This document shows positions 1 to 10,750 of a stretch of 64,000 nt of DNA, one piece after another. Below the pieces are notes generated by a model. It was not told the origin of the DNA. It ran no database searches and was given only the letters and a program-made list of their open reading frames with translations. The stretch is taken from positions 62,001-126,000 of the forward strand of contig JAMJFO010000002.1 of the NCBI GenBank assembly GCA_023544645.1. Direction: 5' to 3'. The stretch is from Desulfobulbaceae bacterium (GTDB lineage: Bacteria > Desulfobacterota > Desulfobulbia > Desulfobulbales > Desulfobulbaceae). Within the stretch, counting starts at the first letter, position 1. Each line of letters opens with the position of its first letter. The position numbers and the translations under genes are program-made.

Positions 1-1057
1 GACTCAGTTCCCGGGTGTTGAGCATTTTCACACCGTACGTGTGAACCAGCCGGCTTCAAAGTACTATTCAACCGAAAACCTCCGTGCAATCTGTGATCTG
101 TGGGAGAAATACGGTTCCGGTATGACCAATATGCACGGATCAACCGGCGACCTTGTTCTGCTTGGAACCCGCACCGAGAATCTGGAGCCCTTTTTCTGGG
201 ATCTGACCCATGAGTTGAAACAGGATCTGGGCGGCTCCGGCTCCAACCTGCGTACACCTTCCTGCTGCCTCGGCCAGTCCCGCTGCGAGTGGGCCTGCTA
301 CGATACCCAGGAAGTTTGCTACCACCTGACCATGCACTACCAGGATGAGATTCACCGTCCGGCATTTCCCTATAAGTTTAAATTCAAATTTTCTGGCTGC
401 CCCAATGACTGTGTCGCGGCTATAGCCCGTTCCGACTTTGCCCTTATCGGGGGCTGGAAGGATGATATCCGTATCGATCAGGCAGCGGTAAAAGAATATG
501 TTGCCGGCAACTACCCCTCCAATGGCGGCGCTCACAGCGGCCGCGACTGGGGCGCTTTTGACATCAAGAAAGAAGTTCTGGACCTGTGCCCCACCGGCTG
601 CATGTGGATGGAAGGCGATGAGCTGAAGATCGACAATGCCGAATGCAACCGCTGCATGCACTGCATCAATGTTATGCCCCGCGCTCTGCGTCCGGGTAAA
701 GAAAAGGGCGCCACTGTCTGCGTCGGCGCCAAAGCCCCGATCCTTGACGGCGCCCAGTTCGCCACCATGATTATTCCTTTTGTCAAGGTTGACAAGGAAA
801 GCGAGTTCCAGGAAGTCATCGATGTCATCGAGAATATCTGGGACTGGTGGATGGAAGTTGGCAAGAACCGCGAGCGTGTTGGTGAAACCATGCAGCGTGT
901 CGGCCTGCCGACCTTTCTCAGTGTTATGGGCGTTGAACCCGTGGCTCAGCATGTAACCGAGCCCCGTTCCAATCCTTATGTATTCTGGAAGGAAGAGGAA
1001 GTTGAGGGTGGTTTTGAGCGTAACGTAGCGGAATTCAGGAAAAAACACGCTATGTAA
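1..1057 (+). CDS. dsrA: Dissimilatory sulfite reductase subunit alpha, 5'-truncated by the window
   Basis: Catalytic-complex subunit that, with DsrB, reduces sulfite in the cytoplasm, the last step of sulfate respiration. The reading frame is open from base 2 and the first visible residues (TQFPGVEHFHTVRVNQP) are already internal DsrA sequence, so the true start lies upstream; about 352 of the usual roughly 435 residues are seen. The siroheme/[4Fe-4S] pattern Cys-X5-Cys (CLGQSRC) followed by Cys-X3-Cys (CPNDC) is intact. A ferredoxin-type insert follows (CNRCMHC with LCPTGC just before it). dsrB starts 63 bp downstream and dsrD follows, which is the arrangement of reductive-type sulfate reducers. 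An internal GTG at 41 is not the start. Confidence 0.97.
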   Translation, partial: TQFPGVEHFHTVRVNQPASKYYSTENLRAICDLWEKYGSGMTNMHGSTGDLVLLGTRTENLEPFFWDLTHELKQDLGGSGSNLRTPSCCLGQSRCEWACYDTQEVCYHLTMHYQDEIHRPAFPYKFKFKFSGCPNDCVAAIARSDFALIGGWKDDIRIDQAAVKEYVAGNYPSNGGAHSGRDWGAFDIKKEVLDLCPTGCMWMEGDELKIDNAECNRCMHCINVMPRALRPGKEKGATVCVGAKAPILDGAQFATMIIPFVKVDKESEFQEVIDVIENIWDWWMEVGKNRERVGETMQRVGLPTFLSVMGVEPVAQHVTEPRSNPYVFWKEEEVEGGFERNVAEFRKKHAM

Positions 1058-1120
1058 TGTGGAACTGCTATAATAGTTTATTTTAAGCAATATATAAATT
1101 TTAGATAAGGAGGTTCTATC

Positions 1121-2260
1121 ATGGGTTACGATCCGAATAATCCGATGGAAGGAAGAATTACGGACCTTGGTCCCCCACATTACAGCAAATTCCTGCCGCC
1201 GGTTATTAAAGATAATAAAGGCAAATGGCTCTATCACGAAATCGTACAGCCCGGCGTTCTGGTTCACGTTTCTGAAACAGGCGCTGAATGCTATACCGTC
1301 CGTGCTGCATCAGCCCGCTTGATTTCCATTGAGCTGATTCGCGAGATGTGTGATATCGCCGATGCGCATTGTGACGGTTACTTGCGTTTTACCACCCGGA
1401 ACAATGTCGAGTTCATGGTTGATTCCAAGGATAAGGTTCAACCACTGCTCGACGACCTCAAAGGACGCGGCAACAAGTTTCCGGTGGGCGGCACCGGCGC
1501 CTGTGTGACCAATATCGTTCATACCCAGGGTTGGGTTCACTGCCATACTCCGGCAACCGATGCTTCCGGTCCGGTCAAGGCTGTTATGGACGAACTGTTC
1601 GAGTATTTCGGTTCAATGAAGCTGCCGGCCCAGGTCCGTATTGCCCTGGCCTGTTGCCTGAACATGTGCGGCGCCGTGCACGCATCTGATATCGCCCTGC
1701 TTGGCGTTCACCGCAAGCCGCCGATGATTGATCATGAACGCATCAGCGGTGTGTGTGAGCTGCCGCTGGCCATCGCCGCCTGTCCGCTGGGAGCCATTAA
1801 ACCGGCCAAGGCAGAGGTGAACGGCGAGGAAGTGAAGTCGCTCAAGGTCAACGTCGATCGGTGTATGTTCTGTGGTAACTGCTACACGATGTGCCCGGCC
1901 ATGCCCCTTGCTGATCCCGATGGTGACGGTATCGCCATACTGGTCGGTGGTAAGGTTTCCAACGCAAAATCTGCCCCGAAATTTTCCAAGATGGTTATTC
2001 CGTTCCTGCCGAACAACACACCCCGTTTTCCGGAAGTTGTTTCAGCAGTGAAAAACATTCTCGAAGTGTATGCTAAAGATGCCCATAAGTACGAGCGTGT
2101 CGGCGAATGGGCCGAGCGCATCGGCTGGGAGAAGTTCTTCGAGAAATGCAATATTCCGTTTACCGACAAATGTGTTGACGATTATCGCCTTGCATATACA
2201 ACCTGGCGAACCACTACACAGTTCAAGTATACCAGCGCCACAGACGCGTATACCAAATAA
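1121..2260 (+). CDS. dsrB: Dissimilatory sulfite reductase subunit beta
   Basis: Second catalytic subunit of the alpha2beta2 sulfite reductase. The 379-residue length is normal for DsrB. The start ATG is preceded by a strong Shine-Dalgarno sequence (AAGGAGG). The siroheme-region cysteines are visible in [10 protein letters not shown] and ACCLNMCG, and a ferredoxin-like motif [12 protein letters not shown] lies in the second half. The C-terminal part ([19 protein letters not shown]) matches the DsrAB-type tail. It sits between dsrA and dsrD in one operon; the 86-bp gap to dsrD contains a strong hairpin that may set different message levels for dsrAB and dsrD. Confidence 0.98.
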
Positions 2261-5651: not shown

Positions 5652-5852
5652 ATGTGTCAGATCAGTGTAGTTATAGAGAATAACGGGGACCAGGAAGGGG
5701 TTATGGACAACGTAACCTCGCTGCAGGTTACCGATGAAGGAGTGGTGTTGACAACCTTTTTTGAAGAGCCGCTGTCTGTTCCGGATGTGGTTATATCCAG
5801 GATTGATTTTCTCGGGGGCAAGGTTGTTCTCAACCGGGAACAGAAAAAATAA
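5652..5852 (+). CDS. cooT: CooT-family nickel-binding protein
   Basis: A 66-residue protein starting MCQISVV, with the invariant Cys2 that is the nickel ligand in CooT dimers, followed by a small beta-rich body ending in FLGGKVVLNREQKK. CooT is an accessory protein first described for maturation of Ni-containing carbon monoxide dehydrogenase; many sulfate reducers carry stand-alone members. It lies 17 bp after kdsD and 28 bp before a His-rich small protein. That pairing suggests a shared role in nickel handling (inference). Confidence 0.8.
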   Translation: MCQISVVIENNGDQEGVMDNVTSLQVTDEGVVLTTFFEEPLSVPDVVISRIDFLGGKVVLNREQKK

Positions 5853-5880
5853 TGATAATAAGCAATCTGGTGTTGATGAA

Positions 5881-6126
5881 ATGAATGATCTGGAGAAGCT
5901 GCGGGTTATTCTCCCGCATTGGATAGAGCACAATATCGGTCATGGCCGGGAATTTGCAAAATGGGCATCAACCATGGATATAGCGGGTGAAAAGGAACTT
6001 GCCGGTTTATTGCAAAAGGCCGAGTCCTTTCTGCAGTCCGCGGATGCTGTTTTAAAGGAAGCTCTTGCCAGGGCAGGTGGTGAAATAACGGACGGCGGTC
6101 ATCACCATCATCATCACGGACATTGA
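5881..6126 (+). CDS. Small protein with His-rich C-terminus, probably metal-binding
   Basis: An 81-residue helical protein starting MNDLEKLRVILPHWIEHN and ending GGHHHHHHGH. The N-terminal part has additional histidines (HWIEHNIGHGREF). Such helical proteins with a terminal His run occur next to CooT-like genes and probably bind nickel, but I know no assigned reaction. The frame stays open upstream through cooT, so the exact start is uncertain; ATG 5881 is chosen because it follows the cooT stop and begins the conserved-looking segment. The His run is natural and not a cloning tag: it is encoded by mixed CAT/CAC codons and followed by GH. Confidence 0.75.
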   Translation: MNDLEKLRVILPHWIEHNIGHGREFAKWASTMDIAGEKELAGLLQKAESFLQSADAVLKEALARAGGEITDGGHHHHHHGH

Positions 6127-6236: not shown

Positions 6237-9200
6237 TTATTCCGGCTGCATATCTTCAATTTTTCCTGAATAGAGTTCCCATTTGTCTTTGCTCAGGTCA
6301 TGCTGATAGTAGAGCTCGAGGCGGAAGAAGCTTCCCTGTTTCAGTTCCCTGCAGCTCAGGTTGAAAAACATGATGTCGTCATCCCGCTTTATGAAGCGCA
6401 CTTTCGGGTTGCGGAGTTCAGATGACCTTGCCGAAGGATAATTGTCGCGAAAGATCTCTTCATAATTATCCAGGAGCCATTTTTCTTTTTGGCTGATCAG
6501 CAGTTGGTTTTTTATTTCGGTGGTTTGGGTCCGGGCATCATCGAGGATCGCAGCGAGGGTTTCATCATCTGTGAATGGACTGTTTTCGATGAGGTCCACG
6601 ATGGTCTGATAATGTTCTACGGTTTTGTCCAGAGCGGCTTCAGCCCTGTTGGCCGCGACCCCGGCCTGTTCCCTGGCTACGTGGGTGGTCAAAATCGTTT
6701 TCTTGATTTTTTGTATGTTGTTCTCCCCTTCCTGGCCGAGAATACCTCTATTTTTTTCCAACAGGGCAACTGCATCGTTGTAGGTTTCAAGAGCAATGTC
6801 CCACTCCTTATTCTCATATGCTTTTTTTGCTGCGGCAAGTCTGAAATAGAGGTGTGACTGAATCAGCAGCTTGCGGATTTCTGTTTTCTCATTTTCCGGA
6901 ACGATATGCGGATGCGCATCCAGAACCGTCAGTGCGTTCTGGAACGCGTTGATGGATTCCTGCCATTTTGAGTTGTTTATCGCCTTCAGCCCTTCCTGGT
7001 GGTTATAACGGTACGAAGAGACGGCCAGGCGGTCGGCTATAGCACTCTGTTTCTCCGGCGATGAAATGTTTTTGCTCAGTTCCAGGGCGCTCAGGTAAGC
7101 TTTTTCCGCATTGAGCCAGTCCTGTTTGTCCTCGAATTGTTGCGCCTGGCTCAATGATATTTCCAGGCGAAGTTCGTGCACCCGGCGGGAAATGGTGTTG
7201 GCCTGTTCAGTAAAACCGGCTTTATCAGCGTAGGGGAGAGATTTTTCATAGGCAATGACTGCCTGGCCAGGATTCCCGGCTTTCAGCAGCCCTTCCGCTT
7301 GATCCTTGTGGATGTTGAATTGATCAATGGCCTTGGCCGTCTCTACACTTACATACTGGTCACCGTACAAGACCCGGCCCTGCAGGCCCTCTTTGAAGAT
7401 GCTGGAGCCGGCGATTTCCTGAATTCTGTCGGTGATGGTATCCTTTTTCGTGCCATGGAATATGATAACGTTTTCCAAAGCGGATCTTGCGGCATCAAGT
7501 TCTTTCTGGGCATTCTTGAATTCCTTCCTGTTGACAAGCTGTTCCGCGTGCTGCAAGCTGTTCCCGGCAAGTTGGACATTCCTGGAGCCGCTCTGATAAA
7601 TGTATACCGCTCCAGCCCCTATGCCGCAGAGCAGGAAAGCCAGTATCAGGGTGACAACAAGCCGTGCCGGCACTTTGGATCTGGGCCGGCGACGTTTTTT
7701 CTTTATTGTTCCGCTATCTTTTTCTGCAGCTGCTCCGGGTTTGCCTGCCGGCGTCTGCTCCGTCACTTTTTCGTCCGCAGTTCTGTCGGATTTTTTCATT
7801 CCCCCGGCCATCATTGATTCCCGTATACGGTTTCGTGAAAAATCAAGGCCGGGAAAATCAATTGCGATGTTGGCAACGAGATCAAGAATGATGCCTGCTT
7901 TTTCGAGCTCCCCTTTTTGCTCATGCTTATCCGCTTTTTTATACAATTCCTCTGCCTCGCCGATGGCGTCGGTAATGGTCAGCTCAAGCTCTTTCCTGTC
8001 AGGGAGCGAATCCGGATCATGGAGTTCGGCCAGCGCTTTTTTGGCGGAATATATTTGTTTCTGATCAATAAGCGACCGGATGAGAGTGGAGTTTTCGGCG
8101 GGCTTGCCGATCGAGGCGAAATCTTCGTCAAGACTGAGAGCAGAAAGTATTTTTTCCTCATCCCCGGCGGTTTCGGCGGCTTCGGCTGTCTCGTCTTCGT
8201 TTGCTGCCTTGTCATCTTCGGCTTCCAGGCCGGACAGATCAACAGTCTCCTCACTGTCCATGCTCATGGATTCCTCGGTCATGTCGAAATCAAGAGCTGT
8301 TTCCTCCTTTTCAAGACCGGCAAGATCATCCAGCAGTATATCAACAGAGTCAGCTTCTTCAGGTTCGGTAAAAGATTCTTCCTCAAAAGCTGAAGACATG
8401 TCGGTGGAGTCAAATTCCGTTTTCGTTTCCGCGGCTGTGTCCGCCGGCGGTTCCTCGGTATCCAGATCAAACAGATCTTCGGTGGAAGAAGCTACGTCGC
8501 CTGGTTCTTCAGCCTCAGATTCGTCAGCCAGGTCAAAGGAGATGTCATCTTGTATTTCATCTGCTTCAAGGCCGAAGAGATCATCGATTTCATCGTCTCC
8601 GCTGTCCTGAAAATCAAATGGTTCTGTTGCATTATCTTCGCCAGTGTCAAAGGTGAGGTCGTCGCCGGAATCTTCCTCGATGTCAAAAGAAATTTCATCT
8701 CCCGATTCCCCGGATTCTTCATCTTCATCAAAAGAGAAGTCAATATCGTCCTTGAGGATATCCAGATCTGCGGCTGGAACAAATGCGTGCTCCGGTTCGG
8801 CTTGCGTGGGTGATGCTTCCGTCATTTCCTCTTCCTCATCCCGGGGTTCCAGGAGGTCAAAAGGAAGCCATGATTTACGCTCCTCGAACCAATCGAAAGC
8901 ATTCTGGTTAAAGGGTTCTTCTTTAGTGTAGTGATTGCCGCAGATCATCTTGCCGATATGAATGATCAGGTCGGCCAATGAATGGTTTTCCTGCCAGAAA
9001 TCGGCGATACGGATGGCGTCCGGATCGATGTCGGGATGAAATATCGGGGTGATGGGTTTGGCTGTCGGGGGGAAATGGGGGTAGCCGAAAGGCAGGGTTA
9101 TGTGCACCTGATGCTTGTTGTCCGGAGAAGCCGTGCCATCGGAGTTTGTCCGATAACCCTTGATGGTATATTCAATGTCATATTGGTCAGGAGGGTCGCC

Positions 9201-9293
9201 ATCTGTCCTGATGATCTTGATGTCCGGATATCTCTCGAGCATTTTCTGTACCTGCTCGAAATCTGCAGTGAGCTGCTGTGCACCTGATGCCAT
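6237..9293 (-). CDS. Membrane protein with an N-terminal E2/UBC-like domain, acidic linker and periplasmic repeats
   Basis: A 1018-residue protein with unusual architecture. Residues 1-150 resemble a ubiquitin-conjugating E2 fold: the stretch VHITLPFGYPHFPPTAKP is followed by ITPIFHPDID with the E2-type HP (86-87) and then a helix pattern like the E2 C-terminal half. The catalytic cysteine expected after the HP motif is missing (PDAIRIADFW). Residues 151-390 are an Asp/Glu-rich, probably disordered linker. Residues 400-500 are helical. A basic stretch (531-540) precedes one membrane helix (about 541-566), which by positive-inside topology puts the E2-like part in the cytoplasm. The rest is TPR-like and coiled-coil, presumably periplasmic. 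The ribosome-binding site is AAGGG. Function is unknown. Confidence 0.8.
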   Translation of the reverse strand: MASGAQQLTADFEQVQKMLERYPDIKIIRTDGDPPDQYDIEYTIKGYRTNSDGTASPDNKHQVHITLPFGYPHFPPTAKPITPIFHPDIDPDAIRIADFWQENHSLADLIIHIGKMICGNHYTKEEPFNQNAFDWFEERKSWLPFDLLEPRDEEEEMTEASPTQAEPEHAFVPAADLDILKDDIDFSFDEDEESGESGDEISFDIEEDSGDDLTFDTGEDNATEPFDFQDSGDDEIDDLFGLEADEIQDDISFDLADESEAEEPGDVASSTEDLFDLDTEEPPADTAAETKTEFDSTDMSSAFEEESFTEPEEADSVDILLDDLAGLEKEETALDFDMTEESMSMDSEETVDLSGLEAEDDKAANEDETAEAAETAGDEEKILSALSLDEDFASIGKPAENSTLIRSLIDQKQIYSAKKALAELHDPDSLPDRKELELTITDAIGEAEELYKKADKHEQKGELEKAGIILDLVANIAIDFPGLDFSRNRIRESMMAGGMKKSDRTADEKVTEQTPAGKPGAAAEKDSGTIKKKRRRPRSKVPARLVVTLILAFLLCGIGAGAVYIYQSGSRNVQLAGNSLQHAEQLVNRKEFKNAQKELDAARSALENVIIFHGTKKDTITDRIQEIAGSSIFKEGLQGRVLYGDQYVSVETAKAIDQFNIHKDQAEGLLKAGNPGQAVIAYEKSLPYADKAGFTEQANTISRRVHELRLEISLSQAQQFEDKQDWLNAEKAYLSALELSKNISSPEKQSAIADRLAVSSYRYNHQEGLKAINNSKWQESINAFQNALTVLDAHPHIVPENEKTEIRKLLIQSHLYFRLAAAKKAYENKEWDIALETYNDAVALLEKNRGILGQEGENNIQKIKKTILTTHVAREQAGVAANRAEAALDKTVEHYQTIVDLIENSPFTDDETLAAILDDARTQTTEIKNQLLISQKEKWLLDNYEEIFRDNYPSARSSELRNPKVRFIKRDDDIMFFNLSCRELKQGSFFRLELYYQHDLSKDKWELYSGKIEDMQPE

Positions 9294-9296
9294 ATA

Positions 9297-9413
9297 TTAT
9301 CCCTTGAGGGTGATGTAGTCTGCGGGCACTCTGCCTGTGAAACTGGTTTGTTGCTGCAAAAATGGTTGCAGGGAAAAGGTATTTTTACTGTCAGACATTG
9401 TATCGGATTCCAT
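9297..9413 (-). CDS. Possible 38-aa ORF directly upstream of the E2-like gene
   Basis: The frame runs from ATG 9413 to a stop 3 bp before the E2-like gene's ATG. It encodes a 38-residue polar peptide with a Gln-rich centre (QPFLQQQTSF) and an end of ADYITLKG. The last codons carry the AAGGG that serves as the ribosome-binding site for the next gene, so translation could be coupled. A second ATG five codons in is also possible. There is no family match I recognise and its own ribosome-binding site is weak. It may be a small partner or leader peptide, or chance. Confidence 0.35.
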   Translation of the reverse strand: MESDTMSDSKNTFSLQPFLQQQTSFTGRVPADYITLKG

Positions 9414-9567
9414 GCCTTGAAACAAGGAGCTTTTTCCATCAAAATGAACAGATAGGCGAAGAAGTGTCGCCTTCTCTTTGAAAGTTAAGCAATAGTTTGA
9501 GCATATATGGTAAAAAGAATAAAGTATGCAGTTTTATCAGTGAGTTTGGACAAGGTTGCAAAGTGTT

Positions 9568-10248
9568 ATGAATGAATTCTCCGTGGCTTTCAAGGTCGTT
9601 AGTGAACGCAGCTGCCCTTTGTATGCTGCTGACGATCTCTTCGTGTTGACCGGGCAGGCAGTGCAGATGCCCATGGGTCACGCGTCCTGCCTTATTCTTA
9701 TACGCGAGATGACCAATCTCCTCTTCAATACCATTGCTCCCGCCGCCGCAACGGGATTTGAAGAAATAAAAGATGAAATATTCAACTGCGGCGGCTGTAC
9801 GGGTTTGATCAAATTCCAGATGGAGGACAATCCTGAGATTTTGGACCTTGAACATGATGCAGCCTCCGGGGAAAGCCCGGACAGTGAAAGCACTGCTCAG
9901 GGAAAAGAGGACGGGAAACGGAACGGAGTTGTCGTCAGCGGCGAGATCAGTGAGATTTCACCTTCCGAGTTGTTGCAGTTTTTCCACATGCACCAGAAAA
10001 CAGGCAAGTTGATCCTGGATGCTGCCGGCGGGACCGGCAGGGTCGCGTTCCGGGAAGGAGCGATCATTGGCGCCAAGTTTCAGGAGCGGGAAAACAAAGA
10101 AGCGATTTTTGCACTGCTACGGGAACGGCGGGGGAGATTTAATTTTTTCCGCGGCATTCCCCCTTCCTTATTTGAAGTTGAGGATATCGGCGACTTCATG
10201 ATGATCCTCATGGAGGGCATCAAGCGCATGGATGAGGAAGAAGGATAA
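9568..10248 (+). CDS. DUF4388 (PATAN-like) domain protein
   Basis: A roughly 226-residue cytoplasmic protein divergent from the E2-like gene. The N-terminal 90 residues (FKVVSERSCPLYAADDLFVL, then a CGGCTG pair of cysteines) form a small Cys-containing module like those fused to signalling domains in this group. After a polar linker the C-terminal part has the DUF4388 pattern: SGEISEISPSELLQFF, then TGKLIL, GRVAFREGAIIGAKF and ALLRERRGRFNF. DUF4388 domains occur in gliding, motility and two-component proteins and are thought to mediate protein contacts. ATG 9568 is preferred over a TTG four codons upstream. The precise role is unknown. Confidence 0.75.
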   Translation: MNEFSVAFKVVSERSCPLYAADDLFVLTGQAVQMPMGHASCLILIREMTNLLFNTIAPAAATGFEEIKDEIFNCGGCTGLIKFQMEDNPEILDLEHDAASGESPDSESTAQGKEDGKRNGVVVSGEISEISPSELLQFFHMHQKTGKLILDAAGGTGRVAFREGAIIGAKFQERENKEAIFALLRERRGRFNFFRGIPPSLFEVEDIGDFMMILMEGIKRMDEEEG

Positions 10249-10267: not shown

Positions 10268-10750
10268 TCAGTCGCTTTCCTTTTCAAACCCCTGACCGTA
10301 AACCAGTTGACCCTTGACCCTGATGAGCCAGCACGTTTCCGGTGAATCGGCTATCATTTTCCTCCTGCTTCCGGTTATCCAGTGGGAGATTTCATCCATA
10401 TCGTAAAATCTGGAATCAATTCCGAAAAAGCCATCCAGCAGATGGCTGATGGTGTGGAGAAGTTTGCTCTGAAATCCCTGCGGAATGGCGAGGATGTCCT
10501 GCAGATTCTCACAACCTTCCCGGTTGAGTTTGGCAAGGAGATCCGAAAGAACCTGCCGGTTGCGGGCGACTCCTTCCTCGACGAGTTTTTCAAATTGGGG
10601 CGCAGCGGCGTTCATGCAGCGGGAATGATCAATATCGATGGAATCATAATGGACCAGTTGAGATTTTTCGAAAAACAGGCGGACATGGTGTTCGCCCGTT
10701 TCCAGGTCCGGATCGCTGACCAGCATATCGTGTTCAAAGGAGAGGATCAT
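10268..10750 (-). CDS. Conserved hypothetical protein, 160 aa
   Basis: A soluble, Glu/Asp-rich protein with no signal peptide or membrane segment. The N-terminus (MILSFEHDMLVSDPDLETGE) leads into a helical region (FEKLVEEGVARNRQVLSDLL), and the C-terminal 40 residues (WITGSRRKMIADSPETCWLI) look like a beta-rich cap. I do not recognise the family. Its ATG overlaps the stop of the HAD phosphatase gene by 4 bp (ATGA), so it is translationally coupled and last in a minus-strand gene block. Confidence 0.75.
   Translation of the reverse strand: MILSFEHDMLVSDPDLETGEHHVRLFFEKSQLVHYDSIDIDHSRCMNAAAPQFEKLVEEGVARNRQVLSDLLAKLNREGCENLQDILAIPQGFQSKLLHTISHLLDGFFGIDSRFYDMDEISHWITGSRRKMIADSPETCWLIRVKGQLVYGQGFEKESD

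Follow-up and report, generated by a model that had tools for sequence, protein, structure and literature searches.

A probable membrane-anchored, non-catalytic UBC scaffold protein in Desulfobulbaceae, related to the E2s of bacterial ubiquitin-like conjugation operons

Introduction

Within the ubiquitin system, UEVs bind ubiquitin or an active E2. Bacterial operons combining E1, E2, JAB and ubiquitin-like (Ubl) genes have been on record since 2006 (Iyer et al.; PMC1779556), and the same paper lists inactive E2/RWD-like domains of polyUbl operons (table row 6e). In a recent survey, homologues of human E2 domains turned up in bacteria as no more than single instances, spread over four phyla (PMC11354881). 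The bacterial E2 relatives known so far belong mainly to scattered conjugation operons, which are often mobile. In the case presented here, the E2 domain belongs to a gene that is stably chromosomal in a group of sulfur bacteria, among them the cable bacteria, and no conjugation system recognised by our searches remains with it. Its relatives form a natural series (a Cys form in an operon, an orphan with Cys, orphans with Arg, Lys, Ala or Pro, and both kinds together in a single genome) that lets the change from an E2 enzyme to a binding module be studied, a change whose eukaryotic parallel is the origin of UEVs.

The gene lies in a 64,000-nucleotide stretch from the genome of a sulfate reducer of the Desulfobulbaceae (contig JAMJFO010000002.1), called the window below. 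We consider it probable that its product is a membrane-anchored, non-catalytic UBC transmembrane scaffold, whose E2 domain stems from a bacterial Ubl-conjugation operon. No paper naming this E2-like membrane family was found in the literature open to search, subscription journals aside.

Architecture and topology of the protein

Re-reading of the open reading frame agreed with the coordinates and minus strand of the initial annotation, whose order of parts (acidic linker, helical part, one membrane helix, TPR on the far side) is supported by composition, K/R counts and models (Table 1).

Table 1. Features of the E2-like gene and of its divergent neighbour (window positions)
Feature	Position	Strand	Basis
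E2-like gene	6237-9293	-	ORF encoding 1018 aa
UBC (E2-fold) domain, residues 1-146	8856..9293	-	AlphaFold2, Foldseek/VIA, UQ_con, PDB profile matches
Arg95 codon at the E2 catalytic-cysteine position	9009..9011	-	HMM alignment of family profile to UBE2C
Acidic linker, residues 147-385	8139..8855	-	Composition; alignment of members
Helical part and basic stretch KKKRRRPRSK ahead of the membrane helix, residues 386-544	7662..8138	-	Sequence; K/R count
Membrane helix, single, residues 545-563	7605..7661	-	Kyte-Doolittle 2.6
TPR-type helical superhelix, residues 571-956, predicted periplasmic	6426..7583	-	AlphaFold2, Foldseek, Pfam
C-terminal four-strand beta cap, residues 957-1018	6240..6425	-	Strands 389-437 of the C-terminal model
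Intergenic region between the divergent genes	9294..9567	.	Gap to PATAN/DUF4388 gene
Divergent PATAN/DUF4388 gene, candidate partner	9568..10248	+	PF14332 1.1e-19

The linker contains 95 D/E against 6 K/R; in the alignment of members it is long mainly in the window protein's own group and short or absent elsewhere. Motifs of the DEISFD, DDLTFD and DDISFD type recur along it, which suggests a short linear repeat.

The membrane helix is the only clear one in the window protein. Nine K/R are found within the 15 residues preceding it and one after it and, by the positive-inside rule, which is the sole basis for this placement, the UBC domain would be cytosolic and the TPR part periplasmic. The C-terminal AlphaFold2 model (pLDDT 92.6) comprises the TPR superhelix and the beta cap. 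Foldseek with the whole C-terminal model returned mostly TPR proteins as its top matches, Pfam TPR matches occur across the family, and the arrangement of a TPR membrane protein, a single membrane helix and then TPR repeats, is present. TPRs dominated the Foldseek matches to such an extent that no functional lead emerged for the beta cap, which is found at the C-terminus of 17 of the 18 aligned members and is duplicated in two Cys-bearing relatives (L093:7989-10703 and L106:8001-10742). All 18 diverse members examined share the UBC domain and one membrane helix ahead of the TPR part, and the shortest forms of the family (about 530 aa) display the minimal plan of UBC domain, membrane helix, TPR and beta cap.

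An E2 fold related to that of operon E2s

The initial annotation assigned an E2 fold to the first 150 residues. An AlphaFold2 model of residues 1-146, with seven homologous rows as input (pLDDT 84.9, pTM 0.80), contains the elements H4-19, E25-32, E35-49, E55-66, E77-80, H97-102, H106-118 and H130-138. Their predicted order is that of an E2, with an N-terminal helix, a four-strand meander, the HP loop and C-terminal helices; both the beta-meander and the helices are thus present in the model. Foldseek of this model against the PDB gave E2 enzymes in all the matches listed (best E 6.8e-6), VIA-align gave Z 13.3 over 132 residues with UBE2S, and viral E2s ranked first in a viral structure library. 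Among the Foldseek and VIA matches listed there are E2s and no RWD rows, an absence that does not amount to proof. The Pfam family UQ_con (PF00179) matches all 18 diverse members scanned (best 2.2e-9), some of them at or just below the curated cut-off, including the window protein, which alone reaches 7.9e-6 and 26 bits against a cut-off of 27. A family profile of 20 rows, searched against the PDB at E <= 1e-3, matched 184 chains, the best 60 of the 184 all being E2s. It matches UBE2C at 2.3e-8, and in that alignment the invariant Trp100 falls on the Trp that follows the catalytic Cys. Model, structure search and profile all agree on the fold. Two of the motifs first reported are as described (TPIFHPDID at 82-90 and IRIAD at 94-98), while the third, given as PxxFPP, is strictly PxFPP (GYPHFPP, 70-76). 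Of the designation "UEV- or RWD-like", the E2 fold without Cys is supported; the description as a UBC domain proper is preferred to RWD-like, for which there is no positive sign, given that the HP motif, the PLN-type helix at the C-terminus and the Trp behind the Cys site are conserved.

In the genomes searched, the nearest homologue outside the order is a 361-aa E2 of another genome of the same phylum (G612; L173:6936-8018), which aligns with the family at 2e-27 and 35% identity over 142 columns. This protein has both Cys and HPN, and its gene run encodes a YukD-type Ubl, a ThiF-type E1, a JAB peptidase, an FHA membrane protein and a Prok-RING_1 protein. A second Cys-bearing E2, from plasmid pCRI9333.03 of the cyanobacterium Crinalium epipsammum (WP_015205612.1), sits in a ThiF - E2 - JAB run and aligns over all 146 columns at 2e-12 and 27% identity. 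Could the resemblance be due to chance or convergence, the domain being RWD-like or an unrelated alpha/beta domain? The window protein on its own does fall just under the Pfam cut-off, but the alignments of these two Cys-bearing operon E2s, the VIA-align score and the profile match to UBE2C at 2e-8 all speak against such an explanation, which is already disfavoured and which we regard as extremely unlikely. As far as sequence profiles and a predicted structure go, the N-terminal domain is confirmed as a true relative of the E2 enzymes that attach ubiquitin. The same comparisons suggest that the family is an E2 orphaned from a bacterial Ubl system, evolution having run in that direction.

The catalytic position and its conservation

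HMM alignment of the family profile places Arg95 on the catalytic Cys of UBE2C, in accordance with the initial reading of IRIAD at this site. Of the 145 domains aligned, 70 have Arg at position 95, 65 Cys, 4 Lys, 3 Ala, 2 Pro and 1 Asp; the set is partly hand-chosen and partly redundant, so that the Arg/Cys ratio is not a frequency. The Cys count includes the Crinalium E2, leaving 64 relatives with Cys. Cys95 is found in all the long forms read from one family (f100) and in most sequences of a second (f2), which correspond to Desulfocapsaceae and Desulfurivibrionaceae by inferred family names, and Arg95 in the window's family (Desulfobulbaceae-type proteins), apart from an Ala branch. In two genomes (G447 and G448) a long Cys-bearing copy coexists with a short one that has Pro. 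The short non-Cys paralogue of G447 lies directly downstream of clpS and clpA (L170:5071-9615); a link of the short paralogue to ClpS-ClpA was considered and rejected, being confined to G447 and absent in Desulfopila and Desulfosediminicola. The description "catalytically dead" would apply to the lineage of the window, where the Cys is missing, but not to the family as a whole, since 64 of the relatives read have kept it.

The window protein has HPD at 86-88 instead of HPN, and Asp replaces the Asn in 80 of the first 84 rows, Cys-bearing members too. It thus has neither the Cys nor the HPN of a catalytic E2, and by model and alignment it presents the E2 fold without catalytic Cys of a UEV. Its domain is probably non-catalytic. 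On trees with the Crinalium and G612 E2s (both Cys) outside, whose deep forks are weakly supported, Cys would have been exchanged for another residue, or the reverse, 2 to 3 times; Cys is the likelier ancestral state at this position. Where Cys has gone, the residue is nearly always Arg or Lys, which could reflect a new specific role.

The domain is not decaying: in five Arg-bearing pairs, pairwise dN is 0.02-0.05 at dS of 0.3-0.9, which indicates strong purifying selection. P34, P35, Y42, H61, L67-G70, P72-F74, P76, H86, P87, I96, W100, N129 and A132 are invariant in the 20-row profile, and the conserved residues could serve another chemistry. Alternatively, the UBC domain may be only structural, serving the TPR membrane protein as an inert spacer or for dimerisation and offering no specific surface to a partner; its survival after the Cys and every recognisable partner of the system were lost would fit such a role. 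We nevertheless think it very unlikely, as no other part of the protein is as well conserved as the E2 domain (mean identity 47%, against 23% for the TPR part) and the invariant residues include those round the old active site.

Distribution

A scan of 84,980 species genomes with one peptide motif yielded 102 relatives, 80 of which were kept; with a single motif, species representatives and many incomplete assemblies, divergent relatives from other phyla could have gone undetected. The named relatives are chiefly Desulfobulbaceae, Desulfobulbus, Desulfocapsa, Desulfurivibrio, Desulfogranum and the cable bacteria Electrothrix and Electronema. The gene is present in 71 of the 74 genomes of the window's own family, where it is chromosomal, and in 171/258 genomes of the order; families f96-f98, among the rows listed, are without it. 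Few genomes of the wider phylum have it (12 of 395). The domain had been called unusual in bacteria, yet it is no rarity: its gene is a near-universal core gene in its own family and is widespread in two related families. Viral contigs gave 65 pattern matches and no relative among them, and one match of the scan (L017, G162) was discarded as an unrelated protein.

A genome from another family of the phylum (G026) encodes a protein of 1054 aa (L016:6257-9418) that has HPN, and Asp where the Cys would stand, along with long helical repeat arrays and a membrane helix. G026 is the only representative of its class in the collection, and no conjugation genes were evident within the 18 kb read around it.

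Conjugation partners

The absence of an E1 or Ub-like gene next to the E2-like gene, as first noted, is borne out at the locus, and in all the loci read the Desulfobulbales gene stands outside any Ubl-conjugation operon. A genome-wide search with the ThiF, UQ_con, Prok-JAB and YukD families likewise recovered no dedicated set. In the window genome, Pfam profiles gave one ThiF protein above the cut-off, which is MoeB-like judging by the tpiA-like gene it adjoins, and no second UQ_con and no JAB (Prok-JAB) above the cut-off. YukD-type Ubls were found neither there nor in 25 genomes of relatives, with G612 as the positive control. Among 26 genomes of relatives checked, ThiF is above the cut-off in 24, in housekeeping number, and JAB matches are scattered, being above the cut-off in five. 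One genome (G304) holds a separate Prok-E2_B-ThiF fusion and a JAB gene on a 9 kb contig (L169:2380-4609). This locus was weighed as the dedicated E1/JAB of the Cys clade and judged to be an accessory island.

Do the Cys-bearing members still act as enzymes? The family could be a working E2-like thiol enzyme whose partner is a housekeeping ThiF/MoeB with ThiS/MoaD or an unrecognised carrier, the Arg form being regulatory or having lost its activity. The Cys at the exact catalytic position in 64 relatives read, including all the Desulfocapsaceae long forms seen, agrees with this, as do the ThiF proteins of housekeeping number and the two genomes that combine a Cys long copy with a non-Cys short copy in the manner of E2/UEV pairs. 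Against it, the Asn of HPN is Asp in nearly all members, in the genomes checked the Cys proteins are not accompanied by a dedicated E1, JAB or YukD-type Ubl, and the Arg form has no cysteine and yet is under strong purifying selection. We therefore hold a thiol enzyme to be rather unlikely. A more specific version is also unlikely, namely that the Cys form of Desulfocapsaceae/Desulfurivibrionaceae is a live membrane-bound E2-like enzyme that needs no dedicated ubiquitin-like system and either charges itself through the housekeeping ThiF/MoeB sulfur-carrier pathway or puts its cysteine to other thiol chemistry, with the Arg form and the short non-Cys paralogues as its UEV-like counterparts.

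Genomic neighbourhood

Upstream of the E2-like gene lies a divergent PATAN/DUF4388 gene, whose start was taken, by homologues, at an ATG 12 bases inside the listed TTG. The N-terminal part of the protein contains Cys, and the PATAN/DUF4388 domain lies at the C-terminus. This neighbour is present at 58 of 80 loci and at 4 more by tblastn, with a gap of 144-576 bp in the 58 loci; a promoter scan of the gap gave nothing better than chance, as judged by shuffles. The pairing is kept despite differing surroundings (L079, L081, L085, L086, L088-L090), and the PATAN gene is not beside the E2-like gene in cable bacteria, at the short paralogues or at L091. The partners of Cys forms are 336-377 aa long, one cut by a contig end aside, and also carry a cyclic-nucleotide-binding domain (3/3 checked by Pfam), against about 167-266 aa for the partners of Arg forms, L079 and L081 excepted. 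This difference is open to being read as co-variation or as a clade effect, which are inseparable here, and the association in most loci could be plain synteny. In other systems, a role in connecting signals with type IV pili and their machinery has been proposed for PATAN domains (PMC7690835), so that behaviour of the envelope or the surface is a reasonable lead. Going by genome context, the PATAN/DUF4388 product is the best candidate partner and, tentatively, may be the cytosolic partner of the E2-like face.

Other genes surround the pair. A second, weak DUF4388-like ORF (0.075) lies beside an HAD gene (window 10268-10750, minus strand), and a homologous ORF is found at this place in 12 relatives. 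Convergent to the E2-like gene is a small, possibly metal-binding protein ending in GGHHHHHHGH (window 5761-6126, plus strand), with a related small protein at this position in 17 relatives. Further away, two adjacent ORFs of 338 and 379 aa (window 41-2260, plus strand), which we take to be dissimilatory sulfite reductase dsrA and dsrB, are followed by birA-, quinone-oxidoreductase- and KdsD-like genes, an order kept in many relatives.

Proposed mechanism

In the scaffold reading that we favour, an E2 from a Ubl-conjugation operon would have lost its Ubl, E1 and JAB partners, and the orphan would have acquired, by fusion, a membrane helix and a TPR body lying in the periplasm. In Desulfobulbaceae, the E2 cysteine would then have been replaced by arginine. 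The UBC domain would bind instead of catalysing, its cytosolic E2-like face holding a protein partner non-covalently, by analogy with UEV domains, with the acidic linker giving reach, while the TPR/beta-cap part may bind something in the envelope.

Comparison with known systems

The closest described relatives are the operon E2s of G612 and Crinalium, with which the window domain shares a full-length UBC alignment and the GxPP, HP and N..A..W motifs. In contrast to the window protein, they have Cys and HPN, belong to operons with a small Ubl-type protein, a ThiF-type E1 and JAB, and lack the membrane-TPR body, the G612 E2 ending in a zinc-ribbon tail. The row 6e domains of Iyer et al. (2006; PMC1779556), compared here by description only, are likewise bacterial E2-fold domains without Cys; they accompany polyUbl and JAB-E1 operons, whereas the window family is chromosomal, operon-free and membrane-anchored. 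The Pfam family PF00179 takes in all 18 members scanned, and the window protein departs from it by Arg at the active site. Unlike eukaryotic UEVs (UBE2V1/2 and the TSG101 UEV), the window domain is part of a transmembrane TPR protein and no Ubl partner was found encoded; like them, it combines a predicted UBC fold without catalytic Cys with what we propose to be the role of a non-covalent binder.
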